A DNA stretch of 64,000 nucleotides, from positions 62,001 to 126,000 of the forward strand of contig NZ_JAALJI010000009.1 in the NCBI RefSeq assembly GCF_011064595.1. The letters run 5' to 3'. The translations under genes were made by a program, and so were the position numbers. The first letter of the stretch is position 1. Every line of letters begins with the position of its first letter. The notes beneath the pieces are model-generated. The model saw only the letters and a program-made list of their open reading frames with translations, was not told the DNA's origin and did no database searches. The DNA is from Paludisphaera soli (GTDB taxonomy: Bacteria > Planctomycetota > Planctomycetia > Isosphaerales > Isosphaeraceae). Positions 7,672 to 51,643 of this stretch are shown here, piece by piece.

Positions 7672-9041
7672 TGACGCCCGAGCCCTTCGTCTCGCTCTGG
7701 CCCGACCCCGAGGCCCTGGGGACGGTCACCGACCTGTACGAGTTGACGATGCTGGCCGGCTACCTCGCCGAGGGGATGGGGTCGAAGTCGGCGACCTTCG
7801 AGATCTTCGTCCGCCGCCTGCCCCCGGATCGCTCGTTCCTGGTCTTCGCCGGCCTGGAGCAGGCGATCGGCGACCTGGCGCGGCTGGCGTTCTCCAGCGA
7901 GCAGGTCGAGGCGATGCGACGCTGGCCCGCGTTCCAGGGCCTGCCGGCCACGTTCTTCGAGACCCTCCGCCGCTTCCGGTTCGAAGGCGACGTCTTCGCG
8001 ATCCCCGAGGGGACCGTCGTCTTCCCGGGGGAGACCCTCGTCCGGGTCACGGCCCCCCTCCCCCAGGCGCAGTGGGTGGAGACCTTCCTGCTGGCCTCGC
8101 TCGGGTATCCGACGCTCGTCGCCTCGAAGGCGGCTCGCATGGTCCTGGCCGCGCGGGGGAAGCCGCTGTTCGAGTTCGGCGCCCGCCGCGCGCACGGGCC
8201 CCAGGCGGGGCTGCTGGCGACCCGTTCGGCGTACCTCGCCGGGTTCGAGGCGACCAGCCACGTCGAGGCCGCCCGCAGGCTGGGCATCCCCTGCGTGGGG
8301 ACGATGGCTCATTCCTGGGTCCAGTCCTTCGCGACCGAGGCCGAGGCGTTCGAGGCCTACTCCCGAGTCTTCCCCGCCTCGACGACGCTCCTGGTCGACA
8401 CCTACGAGACGCTGGAGGGCGTCCGGCTGGCGGCTCGGATCGCCCCGCCGTCGTCGGCCGTCCGCATCGACAGCGGCGACCTGGCCGAGCTGGCGAAGAA
8501 GGCCCGCCTGATCCTCGACGAGCACGGTCGCGGGGACGTGCGGATCATCGCCTCGGGCGACCTGGACGAGTCCGCGCTGGAGGATCTCGCGGCGGCCGGG
8601 GCTCCGATCGACGGCTGCGGCATCGGCACCGAGCTGGTGACCTCGCGCGACGCCCCGGCGCTGTCGATGGTCTACAAGCTCGTCGAACTGGAAGGGGCGG
8701 GGCGGGTCAAGCTCTCCCCCGGCAAGAAGACGTATCCGATGGCCAAGCAGGTCTACCGCCGTCGCGACGCCTCGGGCCGGTTCGTCGGCGACCTCGTCGC
8801 CCGCGCCGACGAGCCGACGCCCGACCAGGGCGACGAGCCGCTCCTCGTCCCGGTCCTCCGAGGCGGCGAGCCGGCGCGACGCCCGCCCGGGCTGGAGGAG
8901 ATCCGCGCCCGGTGCCGGGACCAACTCGCCGCCCTGCCCGAGGCGGTCAAGGCCCTGCGGTCCGAGGCCGTCTATCCGGTGTCGTACAGCGACCGCCTCG
9001 AAGCGGACGCGGAGCGGCTGATGCGACAGCGATCGGGATGA
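7671..9041 (+). CDS. pncB: Nicotinate phosphoribosyltransferase
   Basis: A 456-residue enzyme that makes nicotinate mononucleotide from nicotinate and PRPP in NAD salvage. Family marks are VTDLYELTM at the N-terminus, the segment EFGARRAHGP with His175 (the residue phosphorylated in the family), and VRIDSGDL and GIGTELV in the phosphate-binding barrel. The ATG overlaps the GT39 stop codon. The length suits the short clade of bacterial enzymes. The link to a glycosyltransferase is positional and has no obvious metabolic logic. Confidence 0.93.
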   Translation: MTPEPFVSLWPDPEALGTVTDLYELTMLAGYLAEGMGSKSATFEIFVRRLPPDRSFLVFAGLEQAIGDLARLAFSSEQVEAMRRWPAFQGLPATFFETLRRFRFEGDVFAIPEGTVVFPGETLVRVTAPLPQAQWVETFLLASLGYPTLVASKAARMVLAARGKPLFEFGARRAHGPQAGLLATRSAYLAGFEATSHVEAARRLGIPCVGTMAHSWVQSFATEAEAFEAYSRVFPASTTLLVDTYETLEGVRLAARIAPPSSAVRIDSGDLAELAKKARLILDEHGRGDVRIIASGDLDESALEDLAAAGAPIDGCGIGTELVTSRDAPALSMVYKLVELEGAGRVKLSPGKKTYPMAKQVYRRRDASGRFVGDLVARADEPTPDQGDEPLLVPVLRGGEPARRPPGLEEIRARCRDQLAALPEAVKALRSEAVYPVSYSDRLEADAERLMRQRSG

Positions 9042-9251
9042 TCCGGCAAGGTGGCGGGCCGCGGTCGTCCTGGCCGATCCTGCCGATCGCGTCGGGCGGT
9101 CGCGCCGGTCGAGTCTGCCCCACTTGCCCGGCTTCCGGGGGAGGGGAGCGAAGCCGAGCCGCACCGCGAGTCGAATCGAGTTTCCGCCCGCATCAGCCGA
9201 TGAATCCGCACAGGAGGATCGCCGGAGGCTTCCGCGGGAAGGATGGTGGGG

Positions 9252-9998
9252 ATGGCCAAGATCATCAGCGTGGCCAATCAGAAGGGGGGGGTGGGGAAGA
9301 CGACGACCGCGATCAACATCGCCGCCGGCCTGGCGAAGTCCGGGCGGACGGCCCTCGTGATCGACGTCGACCCGCAGTGCAACGCGACCAGCGGGCTGGG
9401 CGTGGAGCCGGCGCAGCGGCATCCGCTGCTCGCGGGCAAGCCGCTGGCCGAGACGGTCGTCGAGACGACGCAGGCCAACCTGTTCGTCCTGCCGGGCTCG
9501 CAGAGCCTGGCCGACGCCGACGCGCTCTCGGCCTCGAACCGCCAGCGGGCGTCCACCCTCCGCCAGCAGCTGAATGGGGAGCTGAGCCACTTCACCTACG
9601 TCCTGATCGACTGCCCGCCGTCGCTGGGGCAGTTGACCCGGGCGTCGCTGGGGGCCTCGGCCGAGATCTACATCCCCATCCAGTGCGAATACTTCGCGAT
9701 GGAAGGGCTCTCGCAGATCATCGAGCTGGCCCGACAGACCAAGGCCAAGGACAACCACCGCCTGGAGATCGGCGGGATCGTGCTGACCATGTACGACCCG
9801 GCCCTCGACCTGGCGAACGAGGTGGTGAACGAGGTCCGTCAGTACTTCGACGAGACGGTCTTCGATTCGCTCATCCCGCGCGACGTGAGCATCAGCGAGG
9901 CGCCCAGCCACGGACGGAGCGTCCTCGACTACGCGCCGAGGGCGAGGGGCGCCAGAGCCTACACGGAACTTGTCATGGAGGTCATCGACCGTGAATAA
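9252..9998 (+). CDS. parA: Chromosome-partitioning ATPase ParA (Soj)
   Basis: A 248-residue ParA/MinD-type ATPase. The deviant Walker A motif KGGVGKTT is at residues 11-18, followed by VIDVDPQCNATSG (A' box) and LIDCPPSLG (Walker B). It lacks the N-terminal HTH of plasmid type Ia ParA, so it is the chromosomal type. I chose the ATG at 9252 over the one at 9243: AAGG at 9239-9242 lies 9 bases ahead of 9252 but overlaps the other. parB overlaps its 3' end by 8 bases. Confidence 0.95.
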   Translation: MAKIISVANQKGGVGKTTTAINIAAGLAKSGRTALVIDVDPQCNATSGLGVEPAQRHPLLAGKPLAETVVETTQANLFVLPGSQSLADADALSASNRQRASTLRQQLNGELSHFTYVLIDCPPSLGQLTRASLGASAEIYIPIQCEYFAMEGLSQIIELARQTKAKDNHRLEIGGIVLTMYDPALDLANEVVNEVRQYFDETVFDSLIPRDVSISEAPSHGRSVLDYAPRARGARAYTELVMEVIDRE

Positions 9999-18736: not shown

Positions 18737-18809
18737 TTGCGCCGGTAGGAATCGAACCTACGACCTCCAGGTTATGAGCCTGGCGAGCTAGCCGCTGCTC
18801 CACGGCGCA
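18737..18809 (-). tRNA. tRNA-Met, elongator type (anticodon CAT), copy 1
   Basis: Minus-strand cloverleaf: acceptor TGCGCCG/CGGCGCA, D-stem GAGC/GCTC, anticodon stem CCAGG/CCTGG with loop CTCATAA, and T-arm GTAGG-TTCGATT-CCTAC. A normal T1-A72 pair and a mixed anticodon stem rule out the initiator, which has an unpaired 1-72 and GGG/CCC. A lysidine-modified tRNA-Ile (CAT) cannot be excluded by eye. The transcript's downstream side has a hairpin (18683-18701) without a U-run. Confidence 0.93.
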
Positions 18810-19122: not shown

Positions 19123-19195
19123 TTGCGCCGGTAGGAATCGAACCTACGACCTCCAGGTTATGAGCCTGGCGAGCTAGCCGCTGCTCCACGGCGCA
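19123..19195 (-). tRNA. tRNA-Met, elongator type (anticodon CAT), copy 2
   Basis: Identical over all 73 bases to the copy at 18737-18809. The 5' flank (AGGATTCCAG before the mature end) and about ten bases of the 3' flank are also shared, so the duplicated unit is roughly 95 bases. TAGGAT in the common 5' flank may serve as the -10 box. Confidence 0.93.
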
Positions 19196-46587: not shown

Positions 46588-46719
46588 GGATTTCGACGAA
46601 GCGACATGCGAGAATCTGCACGGAAGTCCATCGACAGGGGACATGCGCGCGCCTAGAATCGACTTGATGTACGGATGTCGGGAAGACGCGCGCAATCCGT
46701 CCGTCGGGGAGGGCCACGC

Positions 46720-47166
46720 ATGGGACCTGCGGAGATCGTCGCCAGCCTGCAGCAGCTCTGCGAGGAGCACGGCCCTCGGATCGTCACCGAGCAGATCGTG
46801 GTCTGGATCGAGGACGTCGGCGGGTTCGAGTCGGACGCCGAGCTGATCCGGTTCGCCAAGAAGATGAAGGCCCGGCAGTACGCCCGGATGCTCGAATACG
46901 ACGACGCCGAGAGCGGCCGCCGCATCAAGCGGCTCTGGAGCTTCCGCGACCGTCGCCGGGGCCGCCGGTCGTATACGGACATCACCAAGCTCCCGGACGA
47001 GCGGCGTCGCAAGCTCGTCCAGGAGTACATCAAGTTCGCCGGCCAGATGCGGTCGGTGCGGCGGGCGATGACCGACTCGATCGCCGGCCAGAACTTCTTC
47101 GACTTCTACGCGGACGAGGACGCCGAGCACGAAGAGGTCGAGCTGCCGGCCGCGACGAAGGCCTGA
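46720..47166 (+). CDS. Conserved small hypothetical protein
   Basis: A 148-residue, highly charged soluble protein. An N-terminal helical region (AEIVASLQQLCEEHGPRIVTEQIVVWIEDV) precedes a basic middle (RRIKRLWSFRDRRRGRRSY) and an acidic C-terminus. The basic middle might bind nucleic acid. The ATG at 46720 has GGAGG about 8 bases upstream; an in-frame ATG at 46675 would add a basic tail. Not recognised as a family; it appears to be a planctomycete-type protein. Confidence 0.65.
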   Translation: MGPAEIVASLQQLCEEHGPRIVTEQIVVWIEDVGGFESDAELIRFAKKMKARQYARMLEYDDAESGRRIKRLWSFRDRRRGRRSYTDITKLPDERRRKLVQEYIKFAGQMRSVRRAMTDSIAGQNFFDFYADEDAEHEEVELPAATKA

Positions 47167-47196: not shown

Positions 47197-48063
47197 TTAG
47201 GCCGCGCGACGACAGGCGCGGAGGGCCGCCGTCACGAGCAGCCCGATCCCGGCCAGGGCCAGGCTCGACGGCTCCGGCACGGCGGCCGGGGCGGGCGCGA
47301 AGTTGATCACGCCCACGCCGGTCAGGTCGAAGCCCGACGAGCCGAACGGCGTGGCGTACGGGTCGTTGACCAGGTTGCCGAGCGAGTCATAGCTCCCGTA
47401 GGCCGGGTCGATCGAGCCCACCACGTCGACGATCCGCACGAAGTTGACGTTCCTCACGTCCAGCAGCGGCGAGACGCCGGCCAGCTCCGCCAGGTCGAAG
47501 CCCGTGCCGTAGCCGGCGACGTACTTGCCCGCCAGGTTGTCCAGGTCGCGGGCGTCGAGCATCCCGAAGCCGCCGACCTGCGTGCTCGTCTGGGTCAGCG
47601 AGGTCGCGGCGAACCGGAAGAAGTTGACGCCGTCGGTCGAGACCTCGACGAACGCCAGCTCCAGGTAGGCCAGGAAGCTCCCGGCCGAGGCGAGGAAGCC
47701 GTTCTCGAAGACGGCGAAGTCGGCGCCGGCGCCGTCGGCGATCGGGGCGTCGAAGCCCAGGGTGATCGAGCCGCCGTCGCCGAGCGAGACGAGGCCGCTC
47801 GAAGGATCGCCGAGCGCGTTCTCGGGCGTGCCGACGTTGGCGAGCGGCCCGGCGGGATTGGCCGCATTCTGCGGCCCGCGCTCGAAGCCGGCCACCGAGG
47901 TCGCCCAGCCCTGGAACAAGGGGCTCGTCGCCGCGATCCCCTTCGATCCGGGCTGGCCGATCTGGGGGTCGAAATCGGCGCGGGCGGGGGCCGAGGCGGC
48001 CAGGGCGAGGGTGCCGCACAGGGCGGCCGGGATCATCGAACGAAACGTCGCGAGGCGATTCAT
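47197..48063 (-). CDS. PEP-CTERM surface protein under a cobalamin riboswitch
   Basis: A 288-residue exported protein with a signal peptide (MNRLATFRSMIPAALCGTL, cleaved near residue 29, APARA). The mature domain has GTPENALGDPSSGLVSLGDGGSITLGF and DFAVFENGF then AFVEVSTDGVNFFRF, a jelly-roll-like surface domain I recall in proteins near B12 uptake loci. The tail is VPEPSSLALAG, a hydrophobic helix and RACRRAA. AGGAAAGGAA precedes the ATG by about 8 bases. A B12 riboswitch lies 418 bases upstream on the same strand, so cobalamin capture at the surface is a reasonable inference. Confidence 0.8.
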   Translation of the reverse strand: MNRLATFRSMIPAALCGTLALAASAPARADFDPQIGQPGSKGIAATSPLFQGWATSVAGFERGPQNAANPAGPLANVGTPENALGDPSSGLVSLGDGGSITLGFDAPIADGAGADFAVFENGFLASAGSFLAYLELAFVEVSTDGVNFFRFAATSLTQTSTQVGGFGMLDARDLDNLAGKYVAGYGTGFDLAELAGVSPLLDVRNVNFVRIVDVVGSIDPAYGSYDSLGNLVNDPYATPFGSSGFDLTGVGVINFAPAPAAVPEPSSLALAGIGLLVTAALRACRRAA

Positions 48064-48480
48064 CTGCGTTTCCTTTCCTGTCGTCGAATCTCTTGGGGAC
48101 GCTGGAGCGCGCACCGCCCCCGGTCCCAGGTCGCCACGGTCGCGGCGACGGGTTTCGGGTGGGTGCACGCCCCCCGGGGGCGGTCGGATCGGCGCGGGCT
48201 CAGGCTCCTCGGCGGCCGTCGGGCCTCGCTCGGCGCGCGGCGAGGCCGCGGGGTCCCCTGGGCTTCCCGAAGGGGAGGCGCGAGGGGGCGACGGGCGCTG
48301 GCCGTGCGGCGACGCGGATCGACGAGGGCGGGGAGTCCAAGGGCGAGCCTTTCCGGGGCCTTTCGGGGGACGGCCTCGCGGAAAGAAAAAGGGCGCGGGC
48401 TCGGCCGGCGCACGGAGGGCGCGCGGCGAGACGCCTTTTCCCCCGGATGCTTGAGGCCGAAGCATCGACCGGGTGTCCGA
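48064..48480 (-). promoter_or_regulatory. Long leader between riboswitch and PEP-CTERM gene
   Basis: About 417 GC-rich bases with no credible ORF. A hairpin (48447-48478 region; GATGCTT and AAGCATC arms) follows the aptamer and could be the expression platform, but it lacks a U-run. A pyrimidine run CCCTTTTTCTTT further down has no matching stem. Confidence 0.45.
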
Positions 48481-48665
48481 AGGGCCGTATTCTGGCTCGC
48501 GAGTCGATCGGCCCCCGGACGCCTTCCCACGGGCCGTCGGCCCGCAGTGGCGTTTCGTCCGGGGACCTCCTCGCTTACAGCGGCGGTCCCGCGCCGGATT
48601 CTCACCGGCTTCCTGTCCGACGCCTTCGCGCCGGACGCCCATCGGATTGGCCGGACTTTACCCCG
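48481..48665 (-). ncRNA. Cobalamin (B12) riboswitch aptamer
   Basis: On the minus strand the conserved elements occur in the right order. GAAGCCGGTGAGAATCCGG (core, 48612-48594) is followed by GCGGGACCGCCGCTGTAA (48592-48575), CCACTGCGGG (48550-48541), GGGAAGGCGTCC (48528-48517) and GAGCCAGAATAC (48498-48487). Arms P2 and P1 extend to about 48665. These match the adenosylcobalamin riboswitch consensus. The only same-strand gene below is the PEP-CTERM gene at 48063. Confidence 0.88.
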
Positions 48666-48793: not shown

Positions 48794-51643
48794 ATGGTTC
48801 ACGGGACGTTCATCGTGCTGGCGACGCTCGTCGCCCAGGCGGGCGGCGGGGCCGACGGGGACGAGGCGAGGCGGCTCATCGCGAGCGGCCGGTACGCCGA
48901 GGCGGACGAAGCCTACGAGGCGCTGGCGGAGGCGGCCGGCAAGAAGCCCGACGGCCTCACGCCCGAACTGGAGCGGACGATCGCGCTCGGCCGGGCCGAG
49001 GCCAAGGCCGCCCAGGGGGAATCCGACGAGGCGGTGAAGCTCCTGGAGGCCGCCGAGGCCAAGGGGCCGAAGTCGGCGAAGGTCCCCGCGAAGCTCGCCG
49101 AACTGCACTTCCTGCGGGGCCGCTGGGAGGCCGCCGACGAGGCCGTCGCCCGCGCCCTGGCGATCGACGGCGACGACCTGCTCGCCCGCTGGATCGCGGT
49201 CCGGCTGCTGGAGTCGCGCGGCGAGCTGGAGAAGGCGGTCGACGCCTGCAAGTGGTTCGTCGACCGCTACAACGCCCGCCGCGACGACGTGGCGAAGGAC
49301 GCCGAGGCCCTCGTGCTGATCGGCCAGGCCGCCGAGCGCTACTACCGGGCGTCGGCCCGGGGCGAGGAGCTGGCCGAGTCGCTGAACGACGTGATCAACG
49401 AGATCTACGAAGGAGCCCTGCGGGCCGACCCGACCTGCTGGAAGGCCCCCTGGCTCGAAGGCCGGCTGTTCCTGGCCGGCTATAACGAGCGGGCCGCGTC
49501 GAAGGAGCTGGCGCGGGCCTCGCAGCTCAACCCGCTCGCGCCCGAGGTGCTGGTGACGCTGGGCCAGGCCGATTTGCAGGGCTACCGCCTGGCCTCGGGC
49601 CGGGCCAAGGCCGAGCGCGCCCTGGCGGTGAACCCGAACTACGGCCCGGCGCACGTCCTGATCGCCGACCTGAACATCTCCGACGAGCGGTTCCTCGACG
49701 CCCTCGAAGCGGCGAAGAAGGCCGTCGCCGCGAACCCCCGCGACGAGGACGCGCTGGCGCGCCTCGCGGCCTCGTGCCGCCTGCTGGTCGACCCGGCGGG
49801 CGCCGCCCTGGCCGAGCTGACCGCGTACGCGAACAACCCCCGCCCGGCGAACTTCCACGCGGCGCTCGCCGAGCGCCTGGCCGACCGCCGCAAGTACTTC
49901 ACCGCCGAGCGCGCGTTCCTGCTCGCCGCCCAGGCCGACCCCGGCCGCGCCGACGTCCCCATCGGCCTGGGGATGCTCTACATGCAGATCGGTCGCGAGG
50001 ACGAGGCGTCGAGCCTGTTCAACGCCGCCTTCGCCGCCGACCCGTTCAACGTCCGCGCCGACAACATGATGAAGGTGCTCAAGCACATGAGCACCTACAA
50101 GGCGCTCGAGACCGACCACTTCATCACCACCTACGTCCCCGGCCAGGACGACCTGCTGGCGCGTTACATGTCGGGCTACCTCGAATCGGTCATGCCCGAG
50201 CTGACCGCCATGTTCGGCTACACGCCGCCGAGCCGGACGAAGATCGAGATCATGAAGGACCACCAGTGGTTCAGCGGCCGGACGATCGCCCTGCCTTTCA
50301 TCCCCACGGTCGGCGCCTGCACCGGCAAGGTCGTCGCGATGGCCAGCCCCCGGTCCACCAACAAGCCGTACAACTGGGCGCGGGTGATCAAGCACGAGTT
50401 CGTCCACGTCGTGACCCTGCAGCAGACCGAGTTCAACATCCCCCACTGGTACACCGAGGCCCTGGCCGTCGAGAGCGAAGGGGGGCCCCGGCCGCAGGAG
50501 TGGAACAAGCTGCTGCTGGACCGCGTCCCCTCGCGCAAGAAGCTGCTGAACCTGGACAACATCAACCTCGGCTTCATCCGCCCCGACGAGGCCGACGACC
50601 GCCAGATGGCCTACTGCCAGGCCCAGCTCTACGCCCAGTACATGGCCAAGAGGTTCGGCCCCGACGCCCAGATCAAGATGCTCGCCGCCTACCGCCGCGG
50701 CCTCTCGACCGATCGCGCGATCCAGGAGTGCTTCCACGTCGACAAGGAGGACTTCGAGAAGCAGTACCTCGCCCACCTCGACGAGGTAGTGAAGTCGATC
50801 CGGACCCGCGTCGACGCCGAGGAGCCGATCAAGTTCTCGCAGCTCGAACGCGAGCTGAAGGCCAAGCCCGACGACGCCGACCTGAACGCCAAGATGGCCT
50901 ACGAGCACTTCGCCCGCCGCGACCTCAAGGCCGCGCGGCCGCTCGCCGACAAGGCGCTGAAGCTCAAGGAACACCACCCGCTCGCCAGCTACGTCAAGGC
51001 CCGGCTGCTGACCTCGATCGGCGACGACGACGCGGCGCTCGCGCTGCTGGAGCCGGCCCTCGACCCCGAGCACCCCGACGAGCGCGTCGTCGACCTCCTG
51101 GGCGAATTGACGCTCAAGGCCGGGCGGCTGGAGGAGGCCGAGCGGCTCTACGAGATGGCGCGCAAGGACGACCCCCAGCGCACCAAGTGGATCGCCAACC
51201 TGGCGCGGGTCCACCTGCGGCAGAAGCGGCCCGACGCGTTCCTCGCCGACCTGGCGCAGATCGCCGAGAACGACGCCGACAACCTCTCCGTCCGCACCAA
51301 CCTCGCCGAGCGCTGGCTGGCCGCCGGCGACGCCTCCGAGGCCGAGAAGTGGGCGCGCGAGTGCCTGTACGTGGACGTCTACAGCCCGACCTCGCACGTC
51401 CTCCTGGCCGACGCCCTGGCGATCGCCAAGAAGTACGCCGAGGCCGTCGAGGAATACCGCGTCGCGCTGGAGCTGAAGCCCAAGAAGCCGGCCGACATCA
51501 AGGTGAAGCTCGCCCGCGTCCAGATCGACATGGGCCGAAAGGACGAGGCCCGGGCCACCCTCGACGAGGTGCTCAAGGCCGACCCGGAACATCCCGAGGC
51601 CAAGGCGCTCCGCGACGAGGCGGGCGGCGGGACGGCCGGCTGA
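48794..51643 (+). CDS. TPR protein with a gluzincin-type HEFVH peptidase domain
   Basis: A 949-residue exported protein. After a short signal-like N-terminus come TPR repeats (about residues 30-430). Residues 440-640 are a peptidase-MA-like zinc domain: HEFVH (534-538) with PHWYTEALAV about 20 residues on, where the Glu is the third ligand. More TPRs fill residues 660-940. Predicted zinc proteases of this kind are often surface or periplasmic. AAGGAG 6 bases ahead supports the ATG. A glycosidase gene follows after 19 bases, so the two form an operon. The substrate is unknown. Confidence 0.85.
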   Translation: MVHGTFIVLATLVAQAGGGADGDEARRLIASGRYAEADEAYEALAEAAGKKPDGLTPELERTIALGRAEAKAAQGESDEAVKLLEAAEAKGPKSAKVPAKLAELHFLRGRWEAADEAVARALAIDGDDLLARWIAVRLLESRGELEKAVDACKWFVDRYNARRDDVAKDAEALVLIGQAAERYYRASARGEELAESLNDVINEIYEGALRADPTCWKAPWLEGRLFLAGYNERAASKELARASQLNPLAPEVLVTLGQADLQGYRLASGRAKAERALAVNPNYGPAHVLIADLNISDERFLDALEAAKKAVAANPRDEDALARLAASCRLLVDPAGAALAELTAYANNPRPANFHAALAERLADRRKYFTAERAFLLAAQADPGRADVPIGLGMLYMQIGREDEASSLFNAAFAADPFNVRADNMMKVLKHMSTYKALETDHFITTYVPGQDDLLARYMSGYLESVMPELTAMFGYTPPSRTKIEIMKDHQWFSGRTIALPFIPTVGACTGKVVAMASPRSTNKPYNWARVIKHEFVHVVTLQQTEFNIPHWYTEALAVESEGGPRPQEWNKLLLDRVPSRKKLLNLDNINLGFIRPDEADDRQMAYCQAQLYAQYMAKRFGPDAQIKMLAAYRRGLSTDRAIQECFHVDKEDFEKQYLAHLDEVVKSIRTRVDAEEPIKFSQLERELKAKPDDADLNAKMAYEHFARRDLKAARPLADKALKLKEHHPLASYVKARLLTSIGDDDAALALLEPALDPEHPDERVVDLLGELTLKAGRLEEAERLYEMARKDDPQRTKWIANLARVHLRQKRPDAFLADLAQIAENDADNLSVRTNLAERWLAAGDASEAEKWARECLYVDVYSPTSHVLLADALAIAKKYAEAVEEYRVALELKPKKPADIKVKLARVQIDMGRKDEARATLDEVLKADPEHPEAKALRDEAGGGTAG

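Follow-up and report, generated by a model that had tools for sequence, protein, structure and literature searches.

A cobalamin riboswitch in the planctomycete Paludisphaera soli and the predicted surface-anchored, BtuH-like protein encoded behind it

The stretch of DNA analysed here, called the window, comprises 64,000 nucleotides of the planctomycete Paludisphaera soli (contig NZ_JAALJI010000009.1, positions 62,001 to 126,000). Its minus strand carries a cobalamin (vitamin B12) riboswitch, followed by the gene for a 288-residue protein designated P0001. The reading put forward here, to which we assign a probability of about 0.8, is that the riboswitch has a single gene under its control, encoding a divergent BtuH-like protein anchored at the surface, which would catch cobamides and be repressed by B12. 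The aptamer, the gene, its anchor motif, the relationship in fold and the conserved genomic association are observed. Judged by its sequence and its structure model, P0001 is a divergent BtuH-like protein with a predicted exosortase anchor and a distant relative of BtuH.

The leader contains the following features. Homologue loci in other genomes carry L numbers.

48477 to 48645, minus strand: cobalamin riboswitch aptamer from P1 to P1', based on the RF00174 core and on P1/P2 covariation in related leaders
48487 to 48613, minus strand: RF00174 core match, model positions 47-167 of 189, E 5.2e-15
48446 to 48466, minus strand: P13-like hairpin GATGCTT-CGGCCTC-AAGCATC, its stem invariant in 8/8 leader rows (seven distinct loci)
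48371 to 48444, minus strand: putative expression platform with a GC-rich hairpin, TTTTTCTTT and GAGGCCG, proposed from folds

Only one cobalamin riboswitch in the whole window scores above the Rfam threshold in cmscan, the RF00174 match at 48613-48487 (69.3 bits). It exceeds the gathering threshold of 31.5 by 38 bits, which bears out the first-pass annotation, in which a B12 aptamer had been read on the minus strand. Because the P1 helix and the P13-like hairpin, placed by folding and by comparison with related leaders, fall outside this match, the aptamer exceeds the Rfam span. The P1 closing helix pairs 48645-48637 (5' arm) with 48485-48477 (3' arm), with one U-U mismatch in the window copy, and is present both in the single-sequence fold (z = -3.86) and in the consensus. 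An RNAalifold consensus of eight leader rows, which represent seven distinct loci because L004 and L023 are one contig, contains 77 pairs, 13 of them with changes on both sides (four in P1 and three in P2); P1 pairs are broken in L004/L023. The seven stem pairs of the P13-like hairpin do not vary across these rows. Its loop sequence CGGC (48459-48456) is complementary, as read by eye, to GCCG in L5 (48584-48581), and the two may form an L5-L13 kissing interaction. Past the last aptamer helix, the joining sequence is CAGAAUACGGCC in the window (48494-48483) and in L002-L006 and L008 (CAGAACACGGCC in L002), and the other four riboswitches of the genome carry CAGAAGACCUGCC there. This difference of the P0001-type riboswitches might bear on ligand choice.

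The P13-like hairpin is followed by the GC-rich hairpin, by TTTTTCTTT at 48390-48382 and by GAGGCCG at 48377-48371. The latter is the exact complement of the P13 loop CGGCCTC and was found by eye in all six leaders from L001 to L006. These leader folds are compatible with a switch of the terminator type. Masking of a ribosome site by P13 is unlikely because the start codon (ATG) lies about 420 nucleotides beyond the aptamer. Repression by B12 is established for cobalamin riboswitches as a class.

The gene behind this leader and the parts of its product are as follows.

47197 to 48063, minus strand: gene for P0001, a 288-residue exported PEP-CTERM protein, BtuH-like (open reading frame and Pfam)
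47977 to 48063, minus strand: signal peptide, residues 1-29, ending in APARA, read from the sequence rather than by a predictor
47302 to 47913, minus strand: BtuH-like beta-sandwich domain, residues 51-254 (AlphaFold, VIA-align and hhalign)
47695 to 47703, minus strand: N121-G122-F123, aligned with N399-A400-F401 of BtuH2 (alignment and conservation)
47206 to 47283, minus strand: PEP-CTERM sorting signal, residues 261-286 (Pfam PF07589)

The PEP-CTERM tail scores 27.1 bits against a cut-off of 20.7 and, together with the signal peptide, agrees with the earlier description of the gene below the aptamer as one for an exported PEP-CTERM protein. Three exosortase genes (PF09721 matches above the cut-off) are present in the genome; tail and exosortases make P0001 a candidate PEP-CTERM/exosortase substrate. 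Since the plausible flanking genes are convergent downstream (46675-47166, plus strand) and divergent upstream (48794-51643, plus strand), P0001 appears, from the layout of open reading frames, to be the sole gene on its transcript.

The AlphaFold model, built from an alignment of P0001 with 44 of the 80 named loci described below (45 sequences), has a predicted local distance difference test score (pLDDT) of 89.9 and a predicted template modelling score of 0.81. Foldseek returned a single match in the PDB at E <= 1e-3, 8BLW. When 982 chains were compared by VIA-align, 7BIZ (BtuH2) ranked first (Z 12.6, root-mean-square deviation 3.2, 161 aligned residues, 19% identity) and 8BLW (BtuG1) second (Z 11.9). 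The C-terminal part of 8BLW, where P0001 matches, is a BtuH domain according to its authors (PMC10404256). Consistently, a 15-homologue profile finds 8BLW at E 5e-4, and hhalign relates the 15-row family to the BtuH family with a probability of 95.4 over P0001 residues 51-144; when the 45-row alignment is trimmed to the domains, the local-mode probability is 91-93. The 15-row family or trimmed domains were used because the untrimmed 45-row comparison with BtuH aligned only the tails of the type IX secretion system (T9SS). A search with the BtuG1 H-domain fragment found BtuH homologues in 27 of 149 Bacteroidales genomes, and the BtuH alignment contains 22 of 30 BtuH loci, L148 and L151 having been dropped and L155 and L157-L161 excluded as longer and more divergent. 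The first-pass annotation had likened the system to BtuG/BtuH in logic; with the BtuH2 and BtuG1 H-domains as the top two of 982 folds and a profile match besides, the parallel extends beyond logic. The jelly-roll-like domain described there is corrected to the discoidin/CBM32-like sandwich of BtuH, which is neither DUF4465 nor the BtuG propeller.

BtuH2 makes polar contacts to B12 through Q333, N399, H476, Y510, W511 and W577 and van der Waals contacts through F401 and L578, and its reported dissociation constant for B12 is about 6 pM, a value about which its authors are cautious (PMC8941943). With BtuH2 numbering anchored on the PDB chain (chain position plus 100), DFKVYGNAF of BtuH aligns with DFAVFENGF of P0001, so that N399 and F401 correspond to N121 and F123. 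N121 is invariant in both alignments of the family (15/15 and 45/45), and F123 is conserved to at least 90% in each.

The riboswitch and the gene recur together. A search of 59 genomes, including that of P. soli, found a P0001 match at E <= 1e-3 in 16; of 17 matches, 15 loci with domain matches were kept (L001-L015), and L016 and L017 were dropped because they matched in the sorting tail only. Judged by coordinates, 12 of the 15, the window among them, have an Rfam riboswitch on the gene's strand and upstream of it, and L010 is a thirteenth, with one about 2 kb upstream. An even draw of 294 planctomycete genomes contained 33 with a profile match, several in the sorting tail only. In named genomes, at least 447 encoded relatives were identified. 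The best 80 of these make up the named loci, which are not a random sample and were not selected on riboswitches; L023, L024 and L028 duplicate L004, L007 and L010. Bacteroidota account for 60 of the 80, and Verrucomicrobiota, Planctomycetota, Chthonomonas (L026), an unplaced bacterium (L028) and a labelled woesearchaeote (L081) are also represented. On sequence, the P0001 family thus spans at least three phyla. A surface catcher had been proposed earlier for planctomycetes; the family is not confined to them, being found also in Bacteroidota and Verrucomicrobiota.

A covariance model, R1, was built from 15 planctomycete riboswitches (L006, with a long insertion, was excluded from 16). On the best 80 loci (1.23 Mb, both strands) it gives 70 matches, the weakest four at 28-32 bits, and all 70 lie on the strand of the homologue. 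In 67 of the 80 loci the riboswitch is upstream of the homologue, at a median distance of 1360 nt. The Rfam model was applied to the 50 genomes behind 50 of the loci (49 labelled Bacteroidota and L081; 11 other Bacteroidota-labelled loci and nearly all non-Bacteroidota were left out) and found 69 riboswitches, with one upstream of the homologue in 44 of the 50, a count in which riboswitch and locus were paired by coordinates with contig numbers unchecked and for which the independent R1 also gives 44. Exactly one riboswitch is present in 39 of these genomes, and in 36 of the 39 it is the homologue's own.

A scan of three Bacteroidota operons for TonB receptors found a TonB-dependent receptor in L047 and, in L054 and L098, a receptor with plug together with a BtuG-like DUF5074 propeller (PF16819), a family named beside DUF4465 genes (PMC13398666). 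DUF4465, searched for with a home-made hidden Markov model from domain-only seeds, lies on the strand of the homologue and no more than 1.5 kb away in 36 of the best 80 loci and overlaps or is fused in two more (38/80). Members of this family bind B12, including one from Mucisphaera calidilacus (PMC13398666), which is a planctomycete (PMC8882080). The first-pass annotation had named in advance two outcomes that can be checked by computation and would count against it, a covariance-model score below threshold and homologues never found near B12 loci. The score lies above threshold, and the homologues recur behind B12 riboswitches in several phyla with TonB receptors and DUF4465 proteins as neighbours.

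Several arrangements at these loci were noted in their own right. In L092 (9959-11911, plus strand; Lentimicrobium sp.) a BtuH-like domain, DUF4465 and a T9SS tail lie in one 651-residue open reading frame according to Pfam; the fused protein, folded without an alignment, gave a pLDDT of 31.7, and this model was not used. In L025 (8972-10891, plus strand; Aquisphaera insulae) and in L008 (1474-3234, minus strand) a single open frame contains both a DUF4465 PEP-CTERM unit and a BtuH-like unit, each frame with a signal-peptide-like stretch in its middle; the fusion in one open reading frame is confirmed by Pfam for L025. In L011 and L014 a DUF4465 gene adjoins the BtuH-like gene. A DUF1559 pseudopilin-like gene stands between riboswitch and BtuH-like gene in L011 (355-1365), L014 (268-1410), L028 (8299-9168) and L033 (7774-8763), and in L054 this place is taken by a DUF4430 protein with a T9SS tail (8761-9942); we take DUF4430 to be related to B12 binders of the transcobalamin type. 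Genes of the diphthamide-synthase and methyltransferase types flank the BtuH-like gene in L027 (6094-7080 and 8533-9429), as does a methyltransferase gene in L033 (10795-11592). Elsewhere in the window, at 18737-18809 and 19123-19195 on the minus strand, two copies of a tRNA gene with equal score and aligned sequence lie about 390 bases apart from start to start.

The genome contains five RF00174 sites. Assigned by position and strand, they precede P0001, two DUF4465 PEP-CTERM genes, a DUF1559/N-methylation gene and a gene run of the btuCDF type. P0001 had been called the sole target of its riboswitch, which agrees with its apparent isolation on the transcript; at the level of the genome the claim gives way to four further B12 riboswitches, one of them before btuCDF. 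The gene run, whose domains are DUF1289/DUF6925, FecCD permease, ABC ATPase and periplasmic binding protein, is read from this content as a probable btuCDF. The DUF1559 gene (L167:6911-7879, minus strand, contig C1) immediately follows its riboswitch, and its product bears a pseudopilin-like N-terminal methylation motif. GATase_3 has three matches in the genome, two above the cut-off; the same family was positive in 14 of 14 controls.

B12 has a mass of about 1355 Da. Neither the TonB receptor barrel (PF00593) nor the plug (PF07715) was found in the 99.97%-complete genome, and the controls E. coli, Caulobacter and Bacteroides were positive. This agrees with a survey of 2012, in which TonB and its receptors were absent from Isosphaera pallida and several other planctomycetes (PMC3422733). 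According to a paper on planctomycete cell biology, porins pass molecules of up to about 600 Da, and crateriform structures with their fibres are speculated there to serve macromolecule uptake (PMC5394234). A tentative proposal, to which we give rather less than even odds, is that planctomycetes of this kind, without TonB, acquire B12, which would be too large for general porins, by an outer-surface route that has not been described before and involves no BtuB: riboswitch-controlled, exosortase-sorted binders (the BtuH-like protein and two DUF4465 proteins) and the riboswitch-linked, pseudopilin-like DUF1559 protein would trap the vitamin on fibres or crateriform structures of the surface and deliver it to the periplasm for BtuCDF.

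For P0001 itself the following sequence of events is envisaged. At low intracellular B12 the leader would permit expression. P0001 would then be exported, cut and sorted by one of the three exosortases via its PEP-CTERM tail, and displayed on the surface, where its discoidin-like beta-sandwich would bind cobamides in a pocket retaining the N-x-F element of BtuH. The bound cobamides would be raised in local concentration for the next uptake step and handed over to the BtuCDF importer. P0001 would work alongside this importer and the two DUF4465 PEP-CTERM proteins, which are encoded behind other B12 riboswitches. When B12 is plentiful, the riboswitch would stop expression, most likely within the long leader before the distant start codon. 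In the Bacteroidota relatives the next step probably proceeds via the neighbouring TonB receptor.

A number of observations weigh against this reading. With respect to the switch, a T-run of at least four follows the hairpin in four of the six leaders (L001, L003, L004 and L005, not L002 and L006), and a scan of the leaders for a consensus terminator found none. With respect to the linkage, L012 and L015 have no riboswitch within 1.5 kb; among 20 more distant planctomycete loci (at least 44 bits) an upstream riboswitch on the same strand is present in ten, within flanks of at most 1.5 kb; and 13 of the best 80 loci lack an upstream riboswitch, L072, L093 and L095 despite more than 5 kb of upstream DNA and the other ten with less than 3 kb. 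With respect to homology, a search of the PDB with the single P0001 sequence found no relative (best E 0.84), and the 45-row profile reaches 8BLW at E 0.004 only, ranked below T9SS-tail matches. In global mode, hhalign with trimmed domains gives probabilities of 69 and 43, and residues 145-254 match BtuH by fold only, the profiles giving no reliable alignment there. A close match to the BtuG1 H-domain fragment is present in none of the 50 genomes carrying the P0001 family, in a search that included no known-positive genome and used a query shown to work on the Bacteroidales set; the P0001 family therefore does not simply accompany BtuH. With respect to the ligand, the alignments assign no counterpart to the BtuH2 contacts Q333, H476, Y510, W511 and W577, and beyond residue 53 P0001 lacks tryptophan, so that its pocket must differ from that of BtuH2 and, to judge from the sequence, has probably been remodelled. 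Because these contacts are unplaced, the pocket is probably remodelled and the genome has no detectable TonB receptor, P0001 is named BtuH-like and not BtuH.

That several BtuH2 contact residues are not recognisable in P0001 speaks for an alternative in which it belongs to the B12 uptake regulon without binding B12, as a structural or assembly factor. Such proteins exist in B. theta: BtuL, a lipoprotein of its cobamide uptake operon, shows no detectable cobalamin binding and promotes vesicle release, and BtuK2 does not bind although BtuK1 does (PMC12751083). However, N121 and F123, the equivalents of two ligand contacts, are among the best conserved positions of the family, and the nearest folds are two BtuH domains, which makes a non-binding role unlikely. 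A different ligand, either a glycan, as in CBM32/discoidin proteins, or a B12 precursor or cobalt complex in place of cobamides, is suggested by the VIA-align matches that follow the two BtuH chains, namely CBM32 and F5/8-type-C domains from Z 9.4 downwards, many of them sugar-binding. BtuH2 scores about 3 Z above these sugar binders, however, and the consistent context of B12 riboswitch, TonB receptor, DUF4465 and DUF5074 argues against another ligand, which we consider very unlikely. That a real riboswitch merely happens to lie near the P0001 gene, as one such pair in the window and a leader of about 420 nt might suggest, is contradicted at the level of the family by the same order in 67 of the 80 best loci and 44 of the 50 genomes, against a chance expectation of about 0.07 loci within 6 kb (the count allowed 7 kb), and can be given next to no credence.

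Surface B12 binders, B12 riboswitches and PEP-CTERM scavengers such as ZepA for zinc (PMC10957091) are already known singly. As far as searched, what appears new on the basis of the sequences is a BtuH-like family that spans several phyla in exosortase- and T9SS-anchored forms, is tied to DUF4465 and, in P. soli, belongs to a B12 regulon in which no TonB receptor is detectable. No literature was found that links either BtuH or a cobalamin riboswitch with planctomycetes, or that joins PEP-CTERM, vitamin B12 and riboswitch, in a search outside which most subscription journals lie; a paper on reactor ecology came up for cobalamin riboswitches together with PEP-CTERM. BtuH was described from gut Bacteroidetes, as a domain with no structural homologues known. 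The present analysis connects it with a broader family that occurs in three or more phyla, and predicts a B12 role for the encoded relatives, which number at least 447. It also makes testable the question of how a Gram-negative-type cell imports a cofactor of about 1.35 kDa when no TonB receptor can be detected in it. A likely parts list for B12 uptake is given by the five B12 riboswitches of the genome.

Among the known systems is the LIC_13355 family of lipoproteins (NCBIfam NF033170), which P0001 matches weakly over residues 96-159 (23.1 bits, far under the curated cut-off of 120). In the P0001 family, 18 of 45 members match this model at E <= 1e-3, likewise far below the cut-off; this suggests a distant relationship with the LIC_13355 proteins. 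ZepA, a PEP-CTERM zinc-scavenging exoprotein that also occurs in the PVC superphylum, resembles P0001, in its proposed role, as a scavenger of a scarce nutrient under nutrient control (PMC10957091). It differs in depending on zinc and Zur in place of B12 and a riboswitch. The DUF4465 family (BtuJ1/BtuJ2, D5EK51 and the planctomycete 'Pan') likewise consists of exported B12-locus proteins, which lie near or are fused to the P0001 relatives as described above and are PEP-CTERM anchored in the P. soli genome. P0001 was considered as a member of this family and rejected: none of 15 P0001-family members matches the DUF4465 model PF14717 at E <= 1, and five DUF4465 neighbours and genome partners score 138-190 bits on it.

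The nearest fold is that of BtuH from Bacteroides thetaiotaomicron (BtuH1/BtuH2 and the BtuG1 H-domain; 7BIZ and 8BLW). P0001 differs in its low identity in the structural alignment, in having no PKD domains, in the second half of the domain and in most pocket residues. BtuH is held by a lipoprotein anchor, in contrast to the PEP-CTERM or T9SS tail of the P0001 family (T9SS in 27 of 45 aligned members), which is found also in Planctomycetota and Verrucomicrobiota. An operon shared with btuB is the rule for btuH homologues (more than 80%), though not an absolute one (PMC8941943); in the P. soli genome, where neither receptor barrel nor plug was found, no such btuB-containing uptake locus was detected. 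P0001 resembles BtuH in the profile match over residues 51-144, which includes the N-x-F ligand element. Furthermore, the P0001 family is also exported and encoded behind B12 riboswitches, and its sampled Bacteroidota members share an operon with a TonB-dependent receptor.

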